NCBI GenBank assembly: GCA_027482185.1
Contig: JAIXWF010000003.1
Coordinates: 186,001 to 250,000, forward strand
Reading direction: 5' to 3'
Origin: Opitutaceae bacterium
GTDB lineage: Bacteria > Verrucomicrobiota > Verrucomicrobiia > Opitutales > Opitutaceae
Length of the DNA: 64,000 nucleotides
The translations under genes and the position numbers were made by a program. Shown here piece by piece: positions 5,974 through 12,522 of this stretch; position 1 is the first letter of the stretch; every line of letters begins with the position of its first letter. The notes below the pieces were generated by a model. It was not told where the DNA came from. It did not search any database and saw only the letters and a list, made by a program, of their open reading frames with translations.

Positions 5974-7500
5974 TCAGGCCCCGAGCGGCTGCCACACTCC
6001 TGGGAGCAGTGTGGTAAGGTCGTCCTTTGTGGTCATGGCCGGCAGCCGGGTGAGGAGGTCGCGGATATAGTCGAGCGGGGCGACGCCGCGGCGCTGGCAG
6101 GAGACGACGATGGAGTAGATGATCGCGGAGCGATCGCCGGCGTCGGGGTGACCGATAAACAGGAAGTTCTTTTTGCCGATGGCGGAGGGCCGGATCGCGT
6201 TTTCGAGCAGGTTTGTGTCGATCCGCGTGTCGCCGTGATCGCAGTGCGCGACCAATGCCTCCCACTGGCCGAGCAGATAGCGGCAGGCCTTGCCCAAGCC
6301 CGACTGCGGCAGGCACCGGCGAGCCAGCAACAGCGCAGCCTTCTTCAACAGACGCAGCGTCAGCTCAAAGTCCCTGGCCCTCAACCGGGCGCGCTCGCCT
6401 CCGGCGATCTTCCGCTCATCCCAGTCCCGCTCCATGCGATACAGATGGCCGATGAGCCGCAGCATGAAGCCGGCTTGGATCGGTGCCTGCTCAAGGGCGT
6501 CATTAAACTTCCGCCGGGCGTGGGCGAAGCAGGCGACCCGGATCACCCCCGGATTCTTCTCCGCATAGCGAGCATATCCCTCATAGCCGTCCGACTGGAG
6601 CACGCCCTTGAACCCGTCCAAGAGCGTCGTGATCTCGCCGTGCTGCCGCGTCAGCCGCCAGTCGAAGACGACGTCATCGCCCGGACGACTGATCGCCCAG
6701 AGGTAGCCCTGGAAGGTTTTGCCGGTCGGTTCATCCGGATCCTGGCATCTTATCGGGGTTTCGTCCGCCTGCAGATAGCGGCCGCCCAGCAGTCGTTCCT
6801 TCATGCGGAGGTAAACCGGCCGCAGCCACTCTGCGGTCACCGCCACCCAGTCCGCCATGCTCTTCCGGGACAACCTCGCACCCCAACGCTCCGACATCTT
6901 TTCCTGCCGGAAGAGCGGGACGTGATGCACGTATTTCGAGACAACGACGGCGGCCAGGAGCCCGGCCGACGCGTAACCGCCCATCACCGCCCGGCTCGGC
7001 GCCGGCGCCACGAGCGGCGGCCGGCTCCGGTCCAGCCGATGCCGATACTTCGGGCGCACGATCTCGCGCTTCACCAGTTTAGGCGGGATCAGGTCCACCT
7101 CGAAGGTCCGCTCCTCGCCGATCCGTTCGTAAACCTCCGGGTCCCGTTTCACCTCCGCCGGCACGATCTCCACTGTCTCATGCACCGGCAGATGCCGGAA
7201 CGTCTCCTCCGGCGGGCGTCTTTTCGCCGGCGTCCGCTCGTAGGTCACCGTCTGCGGCTTCGCGGCCGCGATCCGCGCCTCGATCTGCCCCAACGCCAGG
7301 AGCAACTGCGAGCGGTCCAACGACTCGCCCTTGCCCCCGCCGAAGAGCTGTTTCTTCAGCCACGCGACCTGCGTCTCCAGCCCGACTACCTGCTCCTCGA
7401 GCGAGGCCACCTTGCCCTGCAGGGCAAGATTTTCGGCGAAGAGTTGCTCGGCGGGCGGCATGCTGTATCTTAGTATAGGATACAGCGGGTCCCGTGCCAC
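5974..7500 (-). CDS. tnpC: IS66-family transposase TnpC
   Basis: 508 aa from the GTG at 7500 that abuts the tnpB stop, or 495 aa from the ATG at 7461. Domains in order: N-terminal coiled-coil leucine repeat (QLFAENLALQGKVASLEEQV), zinc-finger-like/linker region, then the DDE catalytic core with 'GGRYLQADETP', 'LQSDGYEGYA' and 'NLLENAIRP'. The C-terminal IS66 signature 'LFIGHPDAG...IYSIV' and 'RDLLTRLPAM' follows. It is full length with all catalytic acids present. A hairpin directly upstream of the ATG at 7461 suggests that translation begins at the coupled GTG or is modulated there. Confidence 0.93.
   Translation of the reverse strand: MARDPLYPILRYSMPPAEQLFAENLALQGKVASLEEQVVGLETQVAWLKKQLFGGGKGESLDRSQLLLALGQIEARIAAAKPQTVTYERTPAKRRPPEETFRHLPVHETVEIVPAEVKRDPEVYERIGEERTFEVDLIPPKLVKREIVRPKYRHRLDRSRPPLVAPAPSRAVMGGYASAGLLAAVVVSKYVHHVPLFRQEKMSERWGARLSRKSMADWVAVTAEWLRPVYLRMKERLLGGRYLQADETPIRCQDPDEPTGKTFQGYLWAISRPGDDVVFDWRLTRQHGEITTLLDGFKGVLQSDGYEGYARYAEKNPGVIRVACFAHARRKFNDALEQAPIQAGFMLRLIGHLYRMERDWDERKIAGGERARLRARDFELTLRLLKKAALLLARRCLPQSGLGKACRYLLGQWEALVAHCDHGDTRIDTNLLENAIRPSAIGKKNFLFIGHPDAGDRSAIIYSIVVSCQRRGVAPLDYIRDLLTRLPAMTTKDDLTTLLPGVWQPLGA
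7462..7486 (-). promoter_or_regulatory. Perfect 8-bp hairpin between the two tnpC start candidates
   Basis: GCTGTATC at 7462-7469 and GATACAGC at 7479-7486 form a perfect inverted repeat whose end touches the ATG at 7461-7459. In the transcript it would occlude that start codon. This favours the GTG at 7500 as the tnpC start, or implies translational control through passage of tnpB-translating ribosomes. Function is inferred. Confidence 0.5.
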
Positions 7501-7844
7501 TCACCGCTCGTACCACGCTTTGCGGCGGCCGTCCTTCAGGTCGATCCCTCCGACCAGCATCGTCAGCGCCTCCGTCGTCAGCGAGAGCTTCCTGCGGTCG
7601 CTGCCCACCGGCCAGGTGAACCGCCCCTTCTCCAACCGCTTCGCCAGCACCCACCCCCCGTCCCGTCCCAATACAGGAGCTTCAGCCGATTCCGGACCTT
7701 GTTCGAGAAGACGAACAACGCTCCCTGCCGCGGGTCCTCGCCCAGCCGCTGGTCCACCTCGGCCCACAGGCCGTCGAAGTGCTTGCGCATGTCGACCGGC
7801 TCCACCGCGAGATAGACCCGCCACGAACTCGGGAACGCCAGCAT
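7501..7844 (-). pseudogene. tnpB: IS66-family tnpB, frameshifted in a G run
   Basis: The first frame from the ATG at 7844 reads '[26 protein letters not shown]' and '[10 protein letters not shown]'. The conserved second half, '[17 protein letters not shown]' to '[11 protein letters not shown]', continues only in the other frame. One extra G in the run at about 7656-7663 (minus-strand GGGGGG) would restore the standard '[18 protein letters not shown]' of IS66 Orf2. It is therefore a 1-nt deletion, unless ribosomes slip by -1 on the G run. TnpB is essential in several studied IS66 elements (family knowledge). The stop TGA is followed directly by the GTG of tnpC. Confidence 0.82.
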
Positions 7845-8203
7845 CAGCGCAGCCCCTTCACGCACGCCACCGCATCCTCGATCCGACACGCGCGCACGAT
7901 CAACCCGTCCGGCAGCACGATCTCCACCGCCATCCCCGCCCGCGGCAGCTTGACCTCCACAAACGCCGGCACCTTGGCCGCCGCCGACGCCATGGCACGT
8001 GCCGCCTCCTGTCGGCGCCGGCGCAGCCACCCCGCCGGGGTGAAGCAATTGATTCCTTCCCGCGCCGCGAACGCCCGCTGCGTCAGTCCGCTCGCGTCCA
8101 AAGCCTCCAGCAACCGCTTGCGCTCCCGCTCGTCCCCCAAGCGCCGCCCTCCGCCGTCTGCCTTCGCCAGTTCCAATGTCGCCAACGCCACCGCGGATTT
8201 CAT
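7844..8203 (-). CDS. tnpA: IS66-family TnpA accessory protein
   Basis: 119 aa. It has an N-terminal helix-turn-helix ('[26 protein letters not shown]') and the C-terminal '[19 protein letters not shown]' beta motif typical of IS66 OrfA/TnpA. The stop TGA (7846-7844) overlaps the ATG of tnpB (7844-7842) as TGATG, the usual translational coupling in this family. TnpA is thought to bind DNA and assist the TnpC transposase. The frame is intact. Confidence 0.88.
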
Positions 8204-8256
8204 CCAGACACACTATCACGCCGCCGCCCTCCACGGAACGAGGCACTCCACCGGAC

Positions 8257-9087
8257 TCATACGAGGTACTGGCGGATGAGGCCATTGGTGTTCTCGTTGG
8301 TGCCGCGTTCCCAGGGATGGTGCGGGCTGGCGAAGTAGACCTTGGCGCCGAGTCCGCGTTCGAGCGCGCGGTAGCCATGGAACTCGGTGCCGTTGTCCGT
8401 GGTGAGGGTGCGCACCCGGTGCGGTTCATGGGCCAAGAGAGCGAGCAGGCGCTCGTTGGTGTGCTCGACCGTGGCCCGGGGCACCGGTCCGATGCGCACC
8501 AGCCCGCTCTTGCGTTCCACGGCGGTAAGGATGCCGGCTTTGCCCCGGCCCCGGACGCCGTCCGCCTCCCAGTCGCCGAGGCGGCCGCGCCGGGCGACGA
8601 TGTCGGGTCGGGCCTCGATCGGGCGCTTGCCGGCCAGGCGACCCCGGTTGTCCCGGTGGCCGTAGCGTTTGCGCCGGCGTTTGCCCGCCCCGCGCAGCCA
8701 AGTCCACAGCGTGCCGCGGGCCTGCCGATCCCGCCGGATCCACTCGTAGATCGTCTGGTGGCTCATCACCGGCCGCCCCTGCCGCCGCCGCCACCCCACG
8801 ATCTGCTCCGGACTCCACCGCAGTTCCAGCAGCGCCGCCACCGGCGCGTAGTGCACCGGCCAGTACCGCCGGTTCCGCCGCGACCGCCGCCGCCGCCCAT
8901 TGGCCATCTCCTGCGCCGTGCCCGGCCGATACGCCCCGTCGTACGGCGTCGCGTTGCGCTTCACCTCCCGCCCGATCGTGCTGCGGTGCCGCCCCAGCAC
9001 CTTCGCGATCGCCGCGCGGCTGAGCCCCTGCCCCCGCAGCACCGCGATTTGATGTCTTTCCTCGGAGGTCAGTTGTGCATACACCAT
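8257..9087 (-). pseudogene. IS30-family transposase, N-terminal part (split by IS66)
   Basis: The ATG at 9087 (MVYAQLTSEERHQI...) is preferred over the upstream start. The HTH region 'LSRAAIAKVLGRHRSTIGREVKRN' is followed by the DDE core: 'LGDWEADGV', 'TLTTDNGTEFHG' and 'WERGTNENTNGLIRQYL'. The frame then runs into the IS66 terminus and stops. All three catalytic acids lie in this fragment, but the conserved tail after the final Glu is displaced 2.4 kb to 5682-5881. Rejoining at base 8263 to base 5873 restores a continuous frame of about 338 aa, so the split is recent and otherwise undecayed. Confidence 0.88.
8263..8270. repeat. 8-bp target-site duplication of the IS66 element (right copy)
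   Basis: GAGGTACT, identical to 5874-5881. Read on the minus strand it encodes the end of '...RQYL' in the IS30 transposase. Confidence 0.93.
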
Positions 9088-9117
9088 TCCCGGACCGTGT
9101 TGCACTTACCTCCTGAA

Positions 9118-9220
9118 TCCAAGCAACCGATCAGGTCATCCTCGATGACATGGGTCTTCGCGACCTACCAAAACACAACCGCGAGTATCTACTGCAGGTC
9201 ATCATACGCCCCTGCTATGA
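9118..9220 (+). pseudogene. istB (IS21-family ATPase) middle fragment
   Basis: Plus-strand frame 'DQVILDDMGLRDLPKHNREYLLQVIIRPCYE' is the Walker B region and following helix of IstB-type AAA+ helper proteins (compare LILDD-x-G). The 5' part, with Walker A, is missing; the IS30 end at 9117 replaces it. The frame continues exactly at 10705 ('IRSTIMTSNRP') when the IS110-type element is removed, which identifies that element's insertion point. Confidence 0.8.
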
Positions 9221-9224
9221 TGCC

Positions 9225-9569
9225 GAGGTAGGCAAGCGGGAAGAAGGCTCGGTTGGAGGTTAGTGGTTCAAGGAGTGGTTTTTTCTCGCTGAAGGATTGT
9301 GGCTGGGGGCGAACGGTGGGCCGGCGAGGGGCCCGGATCGGAAGTGTCTCTGGTCCCTATCCCTGGACGTTTGGTCGTCCAAGTTAACCTGCTATCCGTG
9401 CGCGGAGGGCGTCCGGCACATCGTGCTGGATGCAATCTGGTCGAGCAAAAGAGGGACGGAGTGAAGTGGCACCATCTACAGAGCGGTCAACCGGTGACCA
9501 AGGGGCGCTACGTGCGCAGCAACACTCCGAAGTTCGCTTCCCACGGGAGGAAAAATAAGGGGGCCGGGT
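9225..9569 (-). ncRNA. Candidate bridge RNA / seekRNA locus of the IS110-type element
   Basis: This 345-bp stretch between the transposase stop and the element end has no credible gene. It contains several short hairpins (GGACG…CGTCC 9364-9379, TCCG-TGCG-CGGA about 9395-9406, GGTCA…TGACC 9485-9499). Two matches stand out. CCTGCTAT at 9388-9395 repeats the 8 bases of target immediately left of the GA core (9211-9218). CATCTAC at 9473-9479 repeats the 7 element bases immediately before the GA core at the other end (10696-10702). That is what target and donor guides would look like. Transcript, strand and exact ends are not known. Confidence 0.5.
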
Positions 9570-10649
9570 TTAGCTGGGGACGGCCGCCGGCACGATCAGA
9601 TGCAGCTTTTCCGGCGTCGTTTGCCCGGTCGCCAGCCGCCACAGGTCGACCGCCAGCCTTCGCGCGGCGGCGACCGCCCACTTGCGCCGGGCGGCGCCGC
9701 GGGCCACGCCCGCGACCAGGGCCCGGACCGGTGGATAGTCGGGCTGCCACCGGGCCAGGCGCCAGACCAGTTCGATCAGCAGCGCCCGCACCCGCGGGTT
9801 GCCGTAGCGGTTGATCGAACCGTCGCGGCGGCGGCCGCCGCTTTGCTGCACTCCGGGACACAGCCCGGTGTAGCTGGAGACCTGACGGCGGTTCTTGAAC
9901 CGACCCCAGTCGCAGATCTCCCGCAGCAAGGTGACCCAGGTCAGGGCCCCGATCGCCTTCGGCAGCTGCGGCGGCGCCTTGGCCTCCAGTTTTTTCCGGC
10001 GCGCTTGCTCCTGCTCGTCCAACTGCACGATGGTCGCCCGCATCAGCGTCAACTCCCCGAGCAGCCACGGCGAGACCCCCGCCTGCAGATCCTGCCAGCG
10101 CTGGCCGCGCCACCACTGGCCGGCCGCGTGCTGGCCGTAAAACAAGAGCAAGCTGCGGCCCCGGGCCTCCCATTGCTGGCGGCTTTGTTTCAACTGGTCC
10201 CGCAACCGGCACTCGCTGCGCCGCCGCTGCTCCTCCTCGCTCGGCACCCGCACCGGCGTCATCGCCTTGGGATTGCCGCGCAGATACCGGTCGAGTTTGT
10301 CGCACAGCGCCGCCGCATCCAGTTTGTCGGTCTTTTGCCGGCGGCCATCCGCGAGCGCTTCCGCCACCAGCACGTGACTCTGCGCTCCGGCCGCCTGCAA
10401 CTGGTAGTGCAACCCGTAACCGCACGGGCCGGTCTCGTAGCCCACATACACCTTGCGGCCCGCCGCCACGAGGCCCCGCACCACGGCGAGCAATTGCACC
10501 CGCCCCATCGTCTGCGGCCGCAACGGCCGCGCGTCGTCCACCTGGATCGCCACCGCCAGATCGCGCGCGTGCACGTCCGTGCCCATTTTGATCGTTTCCG
10601 ACTTGGTCTCGAGCAACCGCCCGAGCAATTTTGCAACGTTGGTATTCAT
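9570..10649 (-). CDS. IS110-family DEDD transposase/recombinase
   Basis: 359 aa from the ATG at 10649, but the ATG at 10586 (MGTDVHARDLAVAI…) gives the usual family N-terminus, and the upstream ATG sits 2-3 nt from a large hairpin. RuvC-like DEDD residues: Asp in 'MGTDVHARDLA', Glu in 'VGYETGPCGYGL', and the Asp pair in 'TDKLDAAALCD'. The C-terminal Transposase_20 domain has 'LTWVTLLREICDWGRFKNRRQVSSYTGL' and the catalytic Ser region 'GGRRRDGSINRYGNPRVRALLIE'. The frame is intact, so the element may still be active. IS110 proteins act with a structured RNA from the element's own non-coding end. Confidence 0.92.
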   Translation of the reverse strand: MNTNVAKLLGRLLETKSETIKMGTDVHARDLAVAIQVDDARPLRPQTMGRVQLLAVVRGLVAAGRKVYVGYETGPCGYGLHYQLQAAGAQSHVLVAEALADGRRQKTDKLDAAALCDKLDRYLRGNPKAMTPVRVPSEEEQRRRSECRLRDQLKQSRQQWEARGRSLLLFYGQHAAGQWWRGQRWQDLQAGVSPWLLGELTLMRATIVQLDEQEQARRKKLEAKAPPQLPKAIGALTWVTLLREICDWGRFKNRRQVSSYTGLCPGVQQSGGRRRDGSINRYGNPRVRALLIELVWRLARWQPDYPPVRALVAGVARGAARRKWAVAAARRLAVDLWRLATGQTTPEKLHLIVPAAVPS

Positions 10650-10651
10650 TC

Positions 10652-10689
10652 GGCCGACAAGTTGGAGCCTCTTGCTCCGCTTGTCGGCC
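10652..10689. promoter_or_regulatory. Strong hairpin at the upstream end of the IS110-type element
   Basis: A 10-bp perfect stem GGCCGACAAG (10652-10661) / CTTGTCGGCC (10680-10689) encloses a second 5-bp stem GGAGC…GCTCC. One strand forms part of the subterminal inverted repeat shared with the left end. It lies 3 bp from the ATG at 10649, so it would interfere with initiation there. It could serve as a recombinase or RNA recognition structure in the circular junction. Confidence 0.6.
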
Positions 10690-10704
10690 TCATGGCATCT
10701 ACGA

Positions 10705-11107
10705 AATCCGCTCCACGATCATGACCAGCAACCGGCCACGCGAGCACTGGGGTAAACTCTCCCAGGACGTGCCGACTGCCGATGCCGTCCTGAACCATTT
10801 CCACCACCACGCCACCGTCATCGCCATCACCGGCGAAAGCTACCGCCACAAGGACACAGCCATTGCCAAAACCAAGTATCCCGCCACCACCAAGGCCTCG
10901 CAACACCGGTCTCGCGCTCCGCGACTCGCCGGCATCGGCCTCGTCCTTCCCCCGCACCTCCTTGCTTGCTTGGAAAAAACCATTCCGGCCTCCCGCTCGG
11001 CCTCAATTCGACCTTGTCCTTCCGCTCCCATCTTTCATGACCAAACCTCTCTAAAGGTGGCTGGTTTTAACCCGGCCCGTCGTGGCTGGTTTTTACTTGG
11101 CCGGTGA
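10705..11107 (+). pseudogene. istB (IS21-family ATPase) C-terminal fragment
   Basis: 'EIRSTIMTSNRPREHWGKLSQD' and 'LNHFHHHATVIAITGESYRHKD' form the C-terminal block of IstB (sensor 'TSNRP', 'LDRxxHH', 'GxSYR'). The recognisable similarity ends near 10865; the frame stays open to 11107, possibly as a tail running into the IS end. It is separated from the upstream istB fragment by the IS110-type element. Confidence 0.82.
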
Positions 11108-11730: not shown

Positions 11731-12522
11731 TTTTTGGTAAACGGGACGAGAACCCTTGGGTTCGACGAAGCACCGCAGGTGCGGAGAAGGGCTGTCCAGC
11801 AGGACAGGTGCAAGGCACTTGGCTCCAAGGGCCAACCAATCCCGTTGGCCGCCCCATTCTCAACGGGACGAGAACGAAGTTCGACGGAGCGCGCAGCGCG
11901 GAGACGGGCGGTGCCGCAGCACCGGCGCAAGGCGCTTGGGCGCAGCCCAACCAATCCCGTTGGCCGCCCCATTTTTGAAGAAACGGGACGAGTACCGAGG
12001 CCAAAGGCCGACATCGGACACCCTTGGGTTCGACGTAGCGAGCAGAGCGAGCGAAGAAGGGTCGCGCAGCAGCGCGAGTGCAAGGCACTTGGCCCCCGGG
12101 GCCAACCAATCCCGTTGGCCGCCCCATTCTCAACGGGACGAGAACGAAGTTCGACGGAGCGCGTAGCGCGGAGACGGGCGGTGCCGCAGCACCGGCGCAA
12201 GGCGCTTGGGCGCAGCCCAACCAATCCCGTTGGCCGCCCCATTTTAGAAAAAACGGGACGAGTACCGAGGCCAAAGGCCGACATCGGACACCCTTGGGTT
12301 CGACGAAGCACCACAGGTGCGGAGAAGGGCTGTCCAGCAGGACAGGTGCAAGGCACTTGGCCCCCGGGGCCAACCAATCCAGTTGGCCGCCCCATTCTCA
12401 ACGGGACGAGAACGAAGTTCGACGGAGCGCGTAGCGCGGAGATGGGCGGTGCCGCAGCACCGGCGTAAGACGCTTGGGCGAAGCCCAACCAATCCCGTTG
12501 GCCGCCCCATTTTAAGCGGGTC
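11715..12522. repeat. Tandem array of hairpin modules separated by seven copies of an 18-bp core
   Basis: The core CCCGTTGGCCGCCCCATT occurs at 11715, 11841, 11956, 12111, 12226, 12379 (variant CCAGTT) and 12494. Spacings alternate: 126, 115, 155, 115, 153, 115. Each intervening unit is a string of small hairpins with GCA or AGCA loops: slot 1 CACC-GCA-GGTG or CGCG-CA-GCGCG, slot 2 CTGTCC-AGCA-GGACAG, GGTGC-CGCA-GCACC or TCGCGC-AGCA-GCGCGA, slot 3 TTGGGC-GCA-GCCCAA or TTGGCCCC-CGGGGCCAA. Stem sequences differ between units but stay paired. Open frames across it are by-products. No CRISPR-like constant repeat/unique spacer pattern is present. Confidence 0.8.

Follow-up and report, generated by a model that had tools for sequence, protein, structure and literature searches.

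The window, as the whole analysed stretch of 64,000 nucleotides from an Opitutaceae bacterium is called here (contig JAIXWF010000003.1, positions 186,001 to 250,000 of the forward strand), holds an insertion sequence of the IS110/IS1111 type which, judging from the sequence, is inserted into a decayed istB gene. The question raised by this locus is which bases in the non-coding end of the element would find the target and which would recognise the element's own ends. In an initial annotation, CCTGCTAT was taken as the target guide, CATCTAC as the donor guide and GCGGA as the right target guide of such an RNA. The kind of element and the presence of guides in its non-coding end were borne out, while the two guide assignments proved to be exchanged.

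The three matches behind that annotation are present. CCTGCTAT is found at 9211-9218 and 9388-9395 (three copies in the window vs 0.43 expected), CATCTAC is found at 9473-9479 and 10696-10702 (11 copies vs 1.76 expected), and GCGGA (9402-9406) is reverse-complementary to 10707-10711. When the 350-bp non-coding side was shuffled by mononucleotides, CCTGCTAT arose in 0.2% of shuffles and CATCTAC in 0.5%. The features as now located are listed in Table 1.

Table 1. Location of the element, its gene and its predicted guide RNA in the window (+, forward strand; -, transposase strand).
Feature	Position	Strand	Remarks
IS1111-type insertion sequence	9214-10700	-	1487 bp, with one AG core copy counted, at the element's left end; from empty-site comparison with 12 istB homologues; ends common to relatives
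AG core dinucleotide, element right end / right target	9212-9213	-	CT on +
AG core dinucleotide, left target / element left end	10699-10700	-	
Subterminal inverted repeat, left end, ATGAGGCCGA	10684-10693	-	After 7 bp AGATGCC; 9/10 bases match the right copy
Subterminal inverted repeat, right end, ATGATGCCGA	9217-9226	+	3 bp (GCT; AGC on transposase strand) from the core
DEDD transposase/recombinase gene, 359 aa	9570-10649	-	PF01548 32.1 bits, PF02371 63.2 bits, both above cut-off
Predicted bridge RNA / seekRNA gene	9353-9538	-	Stretch of the 29-RNA alignment with consensus helices; extent given is that of the aligned stretch
Helix 1, 5' arm, closing the target-binding loop	9512-9515	-	Pairs with 9469-9472
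Helix 1, 3' arm	9469-9472	-	Pairs with 9512-9515
Right target guide (RTG), RNA CGCCCCU	9501-9507	-	Complementary to core and right target AG-GGGCG (9207-9213)
Left target guide (LTG), RNA GU-AG	9476-9479	-	Same as left target and core GT-AG (10699-10702)
Handshake-like bases AU after the LTG core	9474-9475	-	Same as first left-end donor bases (10697-10698)
Candidate right donor guide (RDG), RNA GCA	9424-9426	-	Complementary to left-end TGC (10695-10697)
Helix 3, 5' arm region, between RDG and LDG	9412-9420	-	
Helix 3, 3' arm region	9397-9406	-	Includes GCGGA (9402-9406)
Left donor guide (LDG), RNA AUAGC-AG	9389-9395	-	Same as element right end and core (9212-9218)
Donor-loop handshake base G	9388	-	Same as first right-target base

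Element ends and core at uninterrupted sites

To locate the ends, the istB gene was compared with 12 intact homologues from the same bacterial family as the host. Joining the flanks without 9214-10700 gave a gap-free istB against 12/12 homologues (PYE at the join) with a mean score of 118.0 bits, whereas the join without 9221-10704, described initially as an exact restoration of istB, kept the frame with one extra codon (PCYE), left a gap against 12/12 homologues and scored 113.4 bits. The ends given at first were off by 4-7 bp.

Uninterrupted sites in other genomes were consistent with this. In genome G280, the right side of the insertion copies L013 and L027 reads CATAGC-AG-GGGCA, and 35 of 42 contexts of the host repeat (the loci of 30 of 187 repeat places plus three element loci, with the rearranged locus L023 among the 35) read GGA-GGGGCA, ATAGCA being found only in the two insertion copies. 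In genome G309, all 20 uninterrupted repeats seen (from the loci of 20 of 47 places) have AAG-ACGTC, compared with CATAGC-AG-ACGTC in the inserted copies. The element at L003 adjoins a repeat, and the partner of this repeat within the same record has the sequence TGT-AG-GAGCGGC. The empty sites in istB, G280, G309 and L003 together indicate that the element begins with ATG(C/A)C and ends with CATAGC on the transposase strand, and that the core is AG (CT on the forward strand) rather than the GA proposed before. GCTATG (9214-9219), the bulk of what had been read as target, is the element's own end. A right half-target ATAGCAG common to all relatives was also considered and is ruled out by the empty sites in istB, G280 and G309.

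The extensions outside the subterminal inverted repeats agree with 7 bp and 3 bp, and ATG opens both repeats, in 24/24 elements; the repeats themselves fall short of the usual length in several. At a number of right ends (e.g., L016, L014, L102 and L113), the motif GCTTGAC stands 20-25 bp ahead of the end; the window element has GCTTGCC. The motif may be the -35 half of a promoter that arises in the circle. The surroundings at 5974-11107 are a pile of old transposons including the broken istB around the element, with an IS66 transposase at 5974-7500 and an rve/HTH_38 transposase resembling IS30 at 8257-9105. A tandem repeat (270 bp unit, 2.8 copies, 91% matches) lies at 11752-12514.

Predicted guide RNA structure and target guides among relatives

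Relatives of the transposase were found in 14/372 genomes of the order (E <= 1e-30), 32/252 genomes of the family (E <= 1e-45) and 5/387 genomes of the phylum, and at 7 loci among named genomes. Viral contigs yielded one short fragment only, and plasmid relatives, all below 60% identity, were left out of the tests. The nearest relative (L002, from an Opitutia assembly) is 99% identical over 2 kb with flanks. Among 56 sequences scanned, 40 combined CATAGCAG at the right end with an ATAGCAG-type site in the RNA region; of the 16 with one or both ATAGCAG sites missing, 6 were added after their ends had been read by eye, and the remaining 10, copies that were short, cut or rearranged (L007, L008, L023 and L101 included), were set aside. 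Removal of 6 elements representing the same insertion in another assembly and of 5 further copies from the same genome reduced the 40 to 29, which with the 6 additions gave 35 elements for the tests. The RNA alignment comprised 29 of these 35 (L027, L029, L031, L103, L112 and L120 were left out).

Copies resembling non-autonomous elements, with large transposase deletions and the RNA gene wholly or partly kept, were L007 and L008 in one Opitutaceae assembly; in genome G117, the copies L014, L025, L029, L030 and L032 likewise have large transposase deletions and keep the RNA gene or part of it.

The non-coding side of the window element (9214-9569) is 3' of the transposase gene. The RNA reads best on the transposase strand, where the guides follow in the order RTG-LTG-RDG-LDG, and a forward-strand RNA was rejected. 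In the consensus, one helix encloses the RTG, a small hairpin and the LTG, and another lies between the RDG and LDG. Over all helices, 93.5% of cells were paired, whereas shuffling gave 75.0% and sliding the partners no more than 57.6%, and 13/14 pairs had double changes; the structure was drawn from the same 29-RNA alignment, which favours it in this test. Helix 1 had 99.1% of cells paired with double changes in 4/4 pairs, and helix 3 had 90.7% paired with double changes in 7/8 pairs. A single-sequence fold of the window RNA was no more stable than shuffles (z -0.40), and an Rfam search of 9100-10800 gave one match, far below the gathering score and at another place.

The main target guide, AGGGGCG on the forward strand at 9501-9507, complementary to the right target, was absent from the initial annotation. 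Across the 35 elements, the summed match of the RTG to its own right target was 278 compared with 202.6 +/- 5.4 after permutation, and 0/20,000 trials reached the own score (maximum 226). The match was perfect over nine bases in 14/35 own pairs and 11/1190 swapped pairs, and reached at least 8/9 in 24/35 own pairs and 46/1190 swapped pairs; the search window, 85-135 nt before the LDG, was picked after the first examples and was the same for own and swapped pairs. Counting only the 31/35 elements scoring at least 7/9, agreement at right-target bases 1-7 was 31, 31, 31, 30, 31, 27 and 20 of 31, falling to 6/31 at base 8. A mismatch was observed in 4/35 elements (L005, L018, L031 and L109).

For the LTG, the left flank was known in 27 elements, with positions partly taken by eye and L019 and L031 not placed by script. 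Two bases before the core matched in 21/27, three in 14/27 and four in 7/27, and the sum was 47 compared with 19.9 +/- 3.6 on permutation (0/20,000); among swapped pairs, two bases matched in 16%. With the revised ends, CATCTAC (RNA GU-AG-AUG) reproduces the left target and the core, followed by the opening bases of the element at its left end. Across relatives its GT-AG part changes with the target and hence belongs to a left target guide, not to the donor guide proposed for it. GCGGA covers three paired columns of the conserved helix between the RDG and LDG, and the stretch does not follow the target, so that its role as right target guide is not upheld.

In the window element itself, the RTG matches at 7/9, with the heptamer arising by chance in 11% of shuffles when this element is taken alone, and only two bases before the core match in the LTG. 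The case for target guides rests on the relatives. That the matches merely reflect chance or the shared ancestry of related elements, with no guide function, would agree with the relatedness of the elements and the shortness of single matches in the window element, but permuting sites among these same elements removed the signal in 20,000/20,000 trials, and where copies in one genome differ by a single guide base, their targets differ by a single base too; the probability left to this explanation is negligible. Such a difference is seen in G280 between the near-identical copies L013, with guide CATGCCCCT at AGGGGCATG, and L027, with guide CGTGCCCCT at AGGGGCACG: one guide base differs, and the targets differ likewise. 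In another copy, interrupted by an insert (L127 and L129, treated as a single copy), the guide CATGCCCCT goes with GGGGCATGC at the right end.

The target of the relatives in G280 is the short palindromic repeat GGGGCAnGCnnnGTCnTGnCC, of which this genome has 187 copies (101 forward and 86 reverse; control 0 and 0). In the window element's own genome, the motif of left plus right target, TGTAGGGGCG, occurred 21 times and a control pattern 30 times, and no repeat target was found. Two tandem copies, L125 and L126 (G280:C11), were also observed, the right flank of L125 misfitting its guide and that of L126 fitting in part.

At L023 (G280:C7, plus-strand ~2644), the RNA gene breaks off precisely at the LTG core (TTGG-AG), where it abuts the host repeat GGGGCATG, and L128 was noted alongside it for an RNA gene cut at this core. 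It looks as if the LTG copy of the left junction had been used at L023 as a false left end in excision, in this one case, or a chance deletion had occurred. Since the left junction is duplicated in the LTG, the element's own system may be able to cut the RNA gene there, mistaking it for a left end.

Probable donor guides and handshake-like bases

CCTGCTAT (RNA AUAGC-AG-G) copies the right tip of the element and the core, plus a single target base. Relatives at unrelated sites kept the guide together with the matching tip (40/56 scanned, one of them, L005, with a one-base variant of the guide); the same CCTGCTAT in relatives with other targets is the finding that the initial annotation had itself named as speaking against a target guide. 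In the covariation comparison, the LDG (9389-9395) varied with the element tip. The LDG was identical to the right end in 39/40 elements, with L005 as the exception. As the pattern CATAGCAG served to find 34 right ends, the other six being read by eye, this identity is partly by construction, and the weight therefore falls on the six variants, each with a matching RTG alongside: ATAGG (L102, L103 and L120), ATATT (L112 and L113) and ATCAT (L117) are all accompanied by the same five bases in the RNA. The RTG matches beside the pattern-located right ends provide an independent check on those ends.

The RDG, whose position was taken by eye, is the weakest of the guides. Its bases (GCA, GTA or TCA) complement the left end in 27/33 elements with a known left end, the disagreement in 6/33 being made up of five copies of one genome and L119.

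The base following the LDG core was the same as the first right-target base in 27/35 elements, and in 32/35 when U.G wobble was allowed, compared with permuted means of 14.5 and 17.2, respectively (0/20,000 each). After the LTG core, the RNA base is A in elements whose left end begins with A and U in those whose left end begins with T; with two states only, this base may weakly track the left end.

The window element is very probably of the IS1111 group, with a guide RNA in which the RTG and LTG would recognise the target and the RDG and LDG the element's own ends. An alternative is that only the target guides act and that the transposase reads the ends through the subterminal inverted repeats, with the LDG and RDG kept for other reasons, e.g., folding or transposase binding. 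The subterminal repeats are indeed present, the donor right end is ATAGC in 34/40 elements, so that its constancy alone proves little, and according to the available text of PMC11187229, an 82-nt RNA with target guides suffices for ISEc11 movement. This reading is nevertheless rather unlikely: where the right end differs, in six elements, the RNA carries the matching change, and the base next to the LDG core varies with the target, a pattern for which folding gives no account.

The original scheme, with CCTGCTAT and GCGGA for the target and CATCTAC for the donor on a forward-strand RNA in IS621 order, draws on three matches that exist and on a forward-strand order that would fit IS621 (LTG, RTG, LDG). 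It is highly improbable given that the join it requires leaves the extra istB codon in 12/12 comparisons, that ATAGCAG is constant while the sites differ and is missing from uninterrupted host repeats, that the GCGGA stretch overlaps a helix arm and does not follow the left flanks, and that the RTG covariation has no role in it. The guides were exchanged because the element ends had been shifted by an in-frame join one codon too long, which shows that element ends need to be established at uninterrupted sites first and guides assigned afterwards.

Family placement, proposed mechanism and known systems

The window transposase has D25, E72, D108 and D111, presumably the published DEDD residues, and GLCPGVQQSG, which fits the IS1111 C-terminal motif GL-P----S(t)G. 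D25, E72 and D108 were invariant across 9 aligned proteins, and D111 is replaced by A in L012. A PDB sequence search with the transposase returned only IS621, at a marginal E of 0.05. The copy in the window is the single one in its own genome, with the catalytic residues present. A strong hairpin at 10651-10690, between the left end and the transposase start (75-nt fold of -31.4 kcal/mol; -16 to -35 kcal/mol at the same place in 24 relatives), could shield the transposase gene from outside transcription.

The RTG is 5' of the LTG, which means that the complement of the top strand comes before the match to the bottom strand, as in IS1111. With this guide order, the downstream RNA and the end extensions all as in IS1111, the element is placed as an apparently new member of the IS1111 group, and the same RNA position and guide order set it apart from the IS110 group.

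Ends, core, guides and helices, with their covariation, can be read in the sequences, and from them we infer transcription, an RNA-protein complex, a circular intermediate, strand exchange and activity of the window copy. A short RNA from the minus strand, downstream of the transposase gene, would fold into two internal loops. The donor loop would combine the RDG (3 nt, for the element's left end) with the LDG (for its right end and core), and the DEDD recombinase would use the RNA to join the target and the circle junction, exchanging strands at the AG core. The bases after the LTG and LDG cores, which match the partner arriving after the exchange, would provide an IS621-like handshake with the strands reversed. 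The logic is that of IS621 with the guide order reversed; the mechanism is known and the lineage, mainly Opitutales, is new.

The less expected part is that covariation appears to support donor and handshake guides in an RNA of the IS1111 type. A literature search joining 'handshake' with IS1111, with most subscription journals outside its coverage, found nothing beyond PMC11208158, in the text available there. The natural set of elements offers a compact test, in which the IS1111-type RNA appears to use a donor guide and handshake bases with the strands reversed. It is reasonably likely that IS1111-group RNAs are complete bridge RNAs, with donor guides for both ends and handshake bases in addition to the two target guides, and with guide order and strand-exchange order reversed relative to IS621, so that one RNA specifies both partners.

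Compared with the IS1111 elements ISEc11, ISPa11 and ISKpn4, as described in the available part of PMC11187229, the window element has in common a DEDD transposase with the GL-P----SG motif, a long non-coding region on the downstream side of the gene, 7-bp and 3-bp extensions beside the subterminal inverted repeats, a top-strand complement 5' of the bottom-strand match, and natural redirection among relatives; repeat (REP) targets are known there for ISPa11. It differs in its host lineage (Opitutales/Verrucomicrobia) and in its inverted repeats, which are usually 11-13 bp and here match at 9/10 bases. For the seekRNA, target guides are described in that part of the article, whereas in the present lineage the donor guide and a handshake base also covary.

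With the IS621 bridge RNA, in the accessible text of PMC11208160 and PMC11208158, the predicted RNA shares two internal loops and four core-containing guides, along with handshake bases that pair with non-cognate DNA and a DEDD recombinase with a serine. According to PMC11208158 (same text), the handshake bases of IS621 assist strand exchange and pair with the non-cognate strand as it comes in. Their position at the 3' end of each loop's second guide is also the same, the second guide here being the left one. In IS621, the RNA is upstream of the gene with the order LTG-RTG-LDG-RDG and a CT core (PMC11208160, PMC11208158, text as available), whereas in the window element it is downstream with the order RTG-LTG-RDG-LDG and an AG core on the transposase strand.

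ISPa11, ISCARN28 and ISAzs32 are IS1111 members. Bridge RNAs have been predicted for these and three others (Extended Data Fig. 10 of PMC11208160, in its available description), and, like the RNA described here, those of the three members lie in the right end and contain donor-binding nucleotides. Compared by description in that source, the donor nucleotides of ISPa11, ISCARN28 and ISAzs32 lie in a multi-loop, whereas in the window RNA the RDG and LDG flank one covarying helix.
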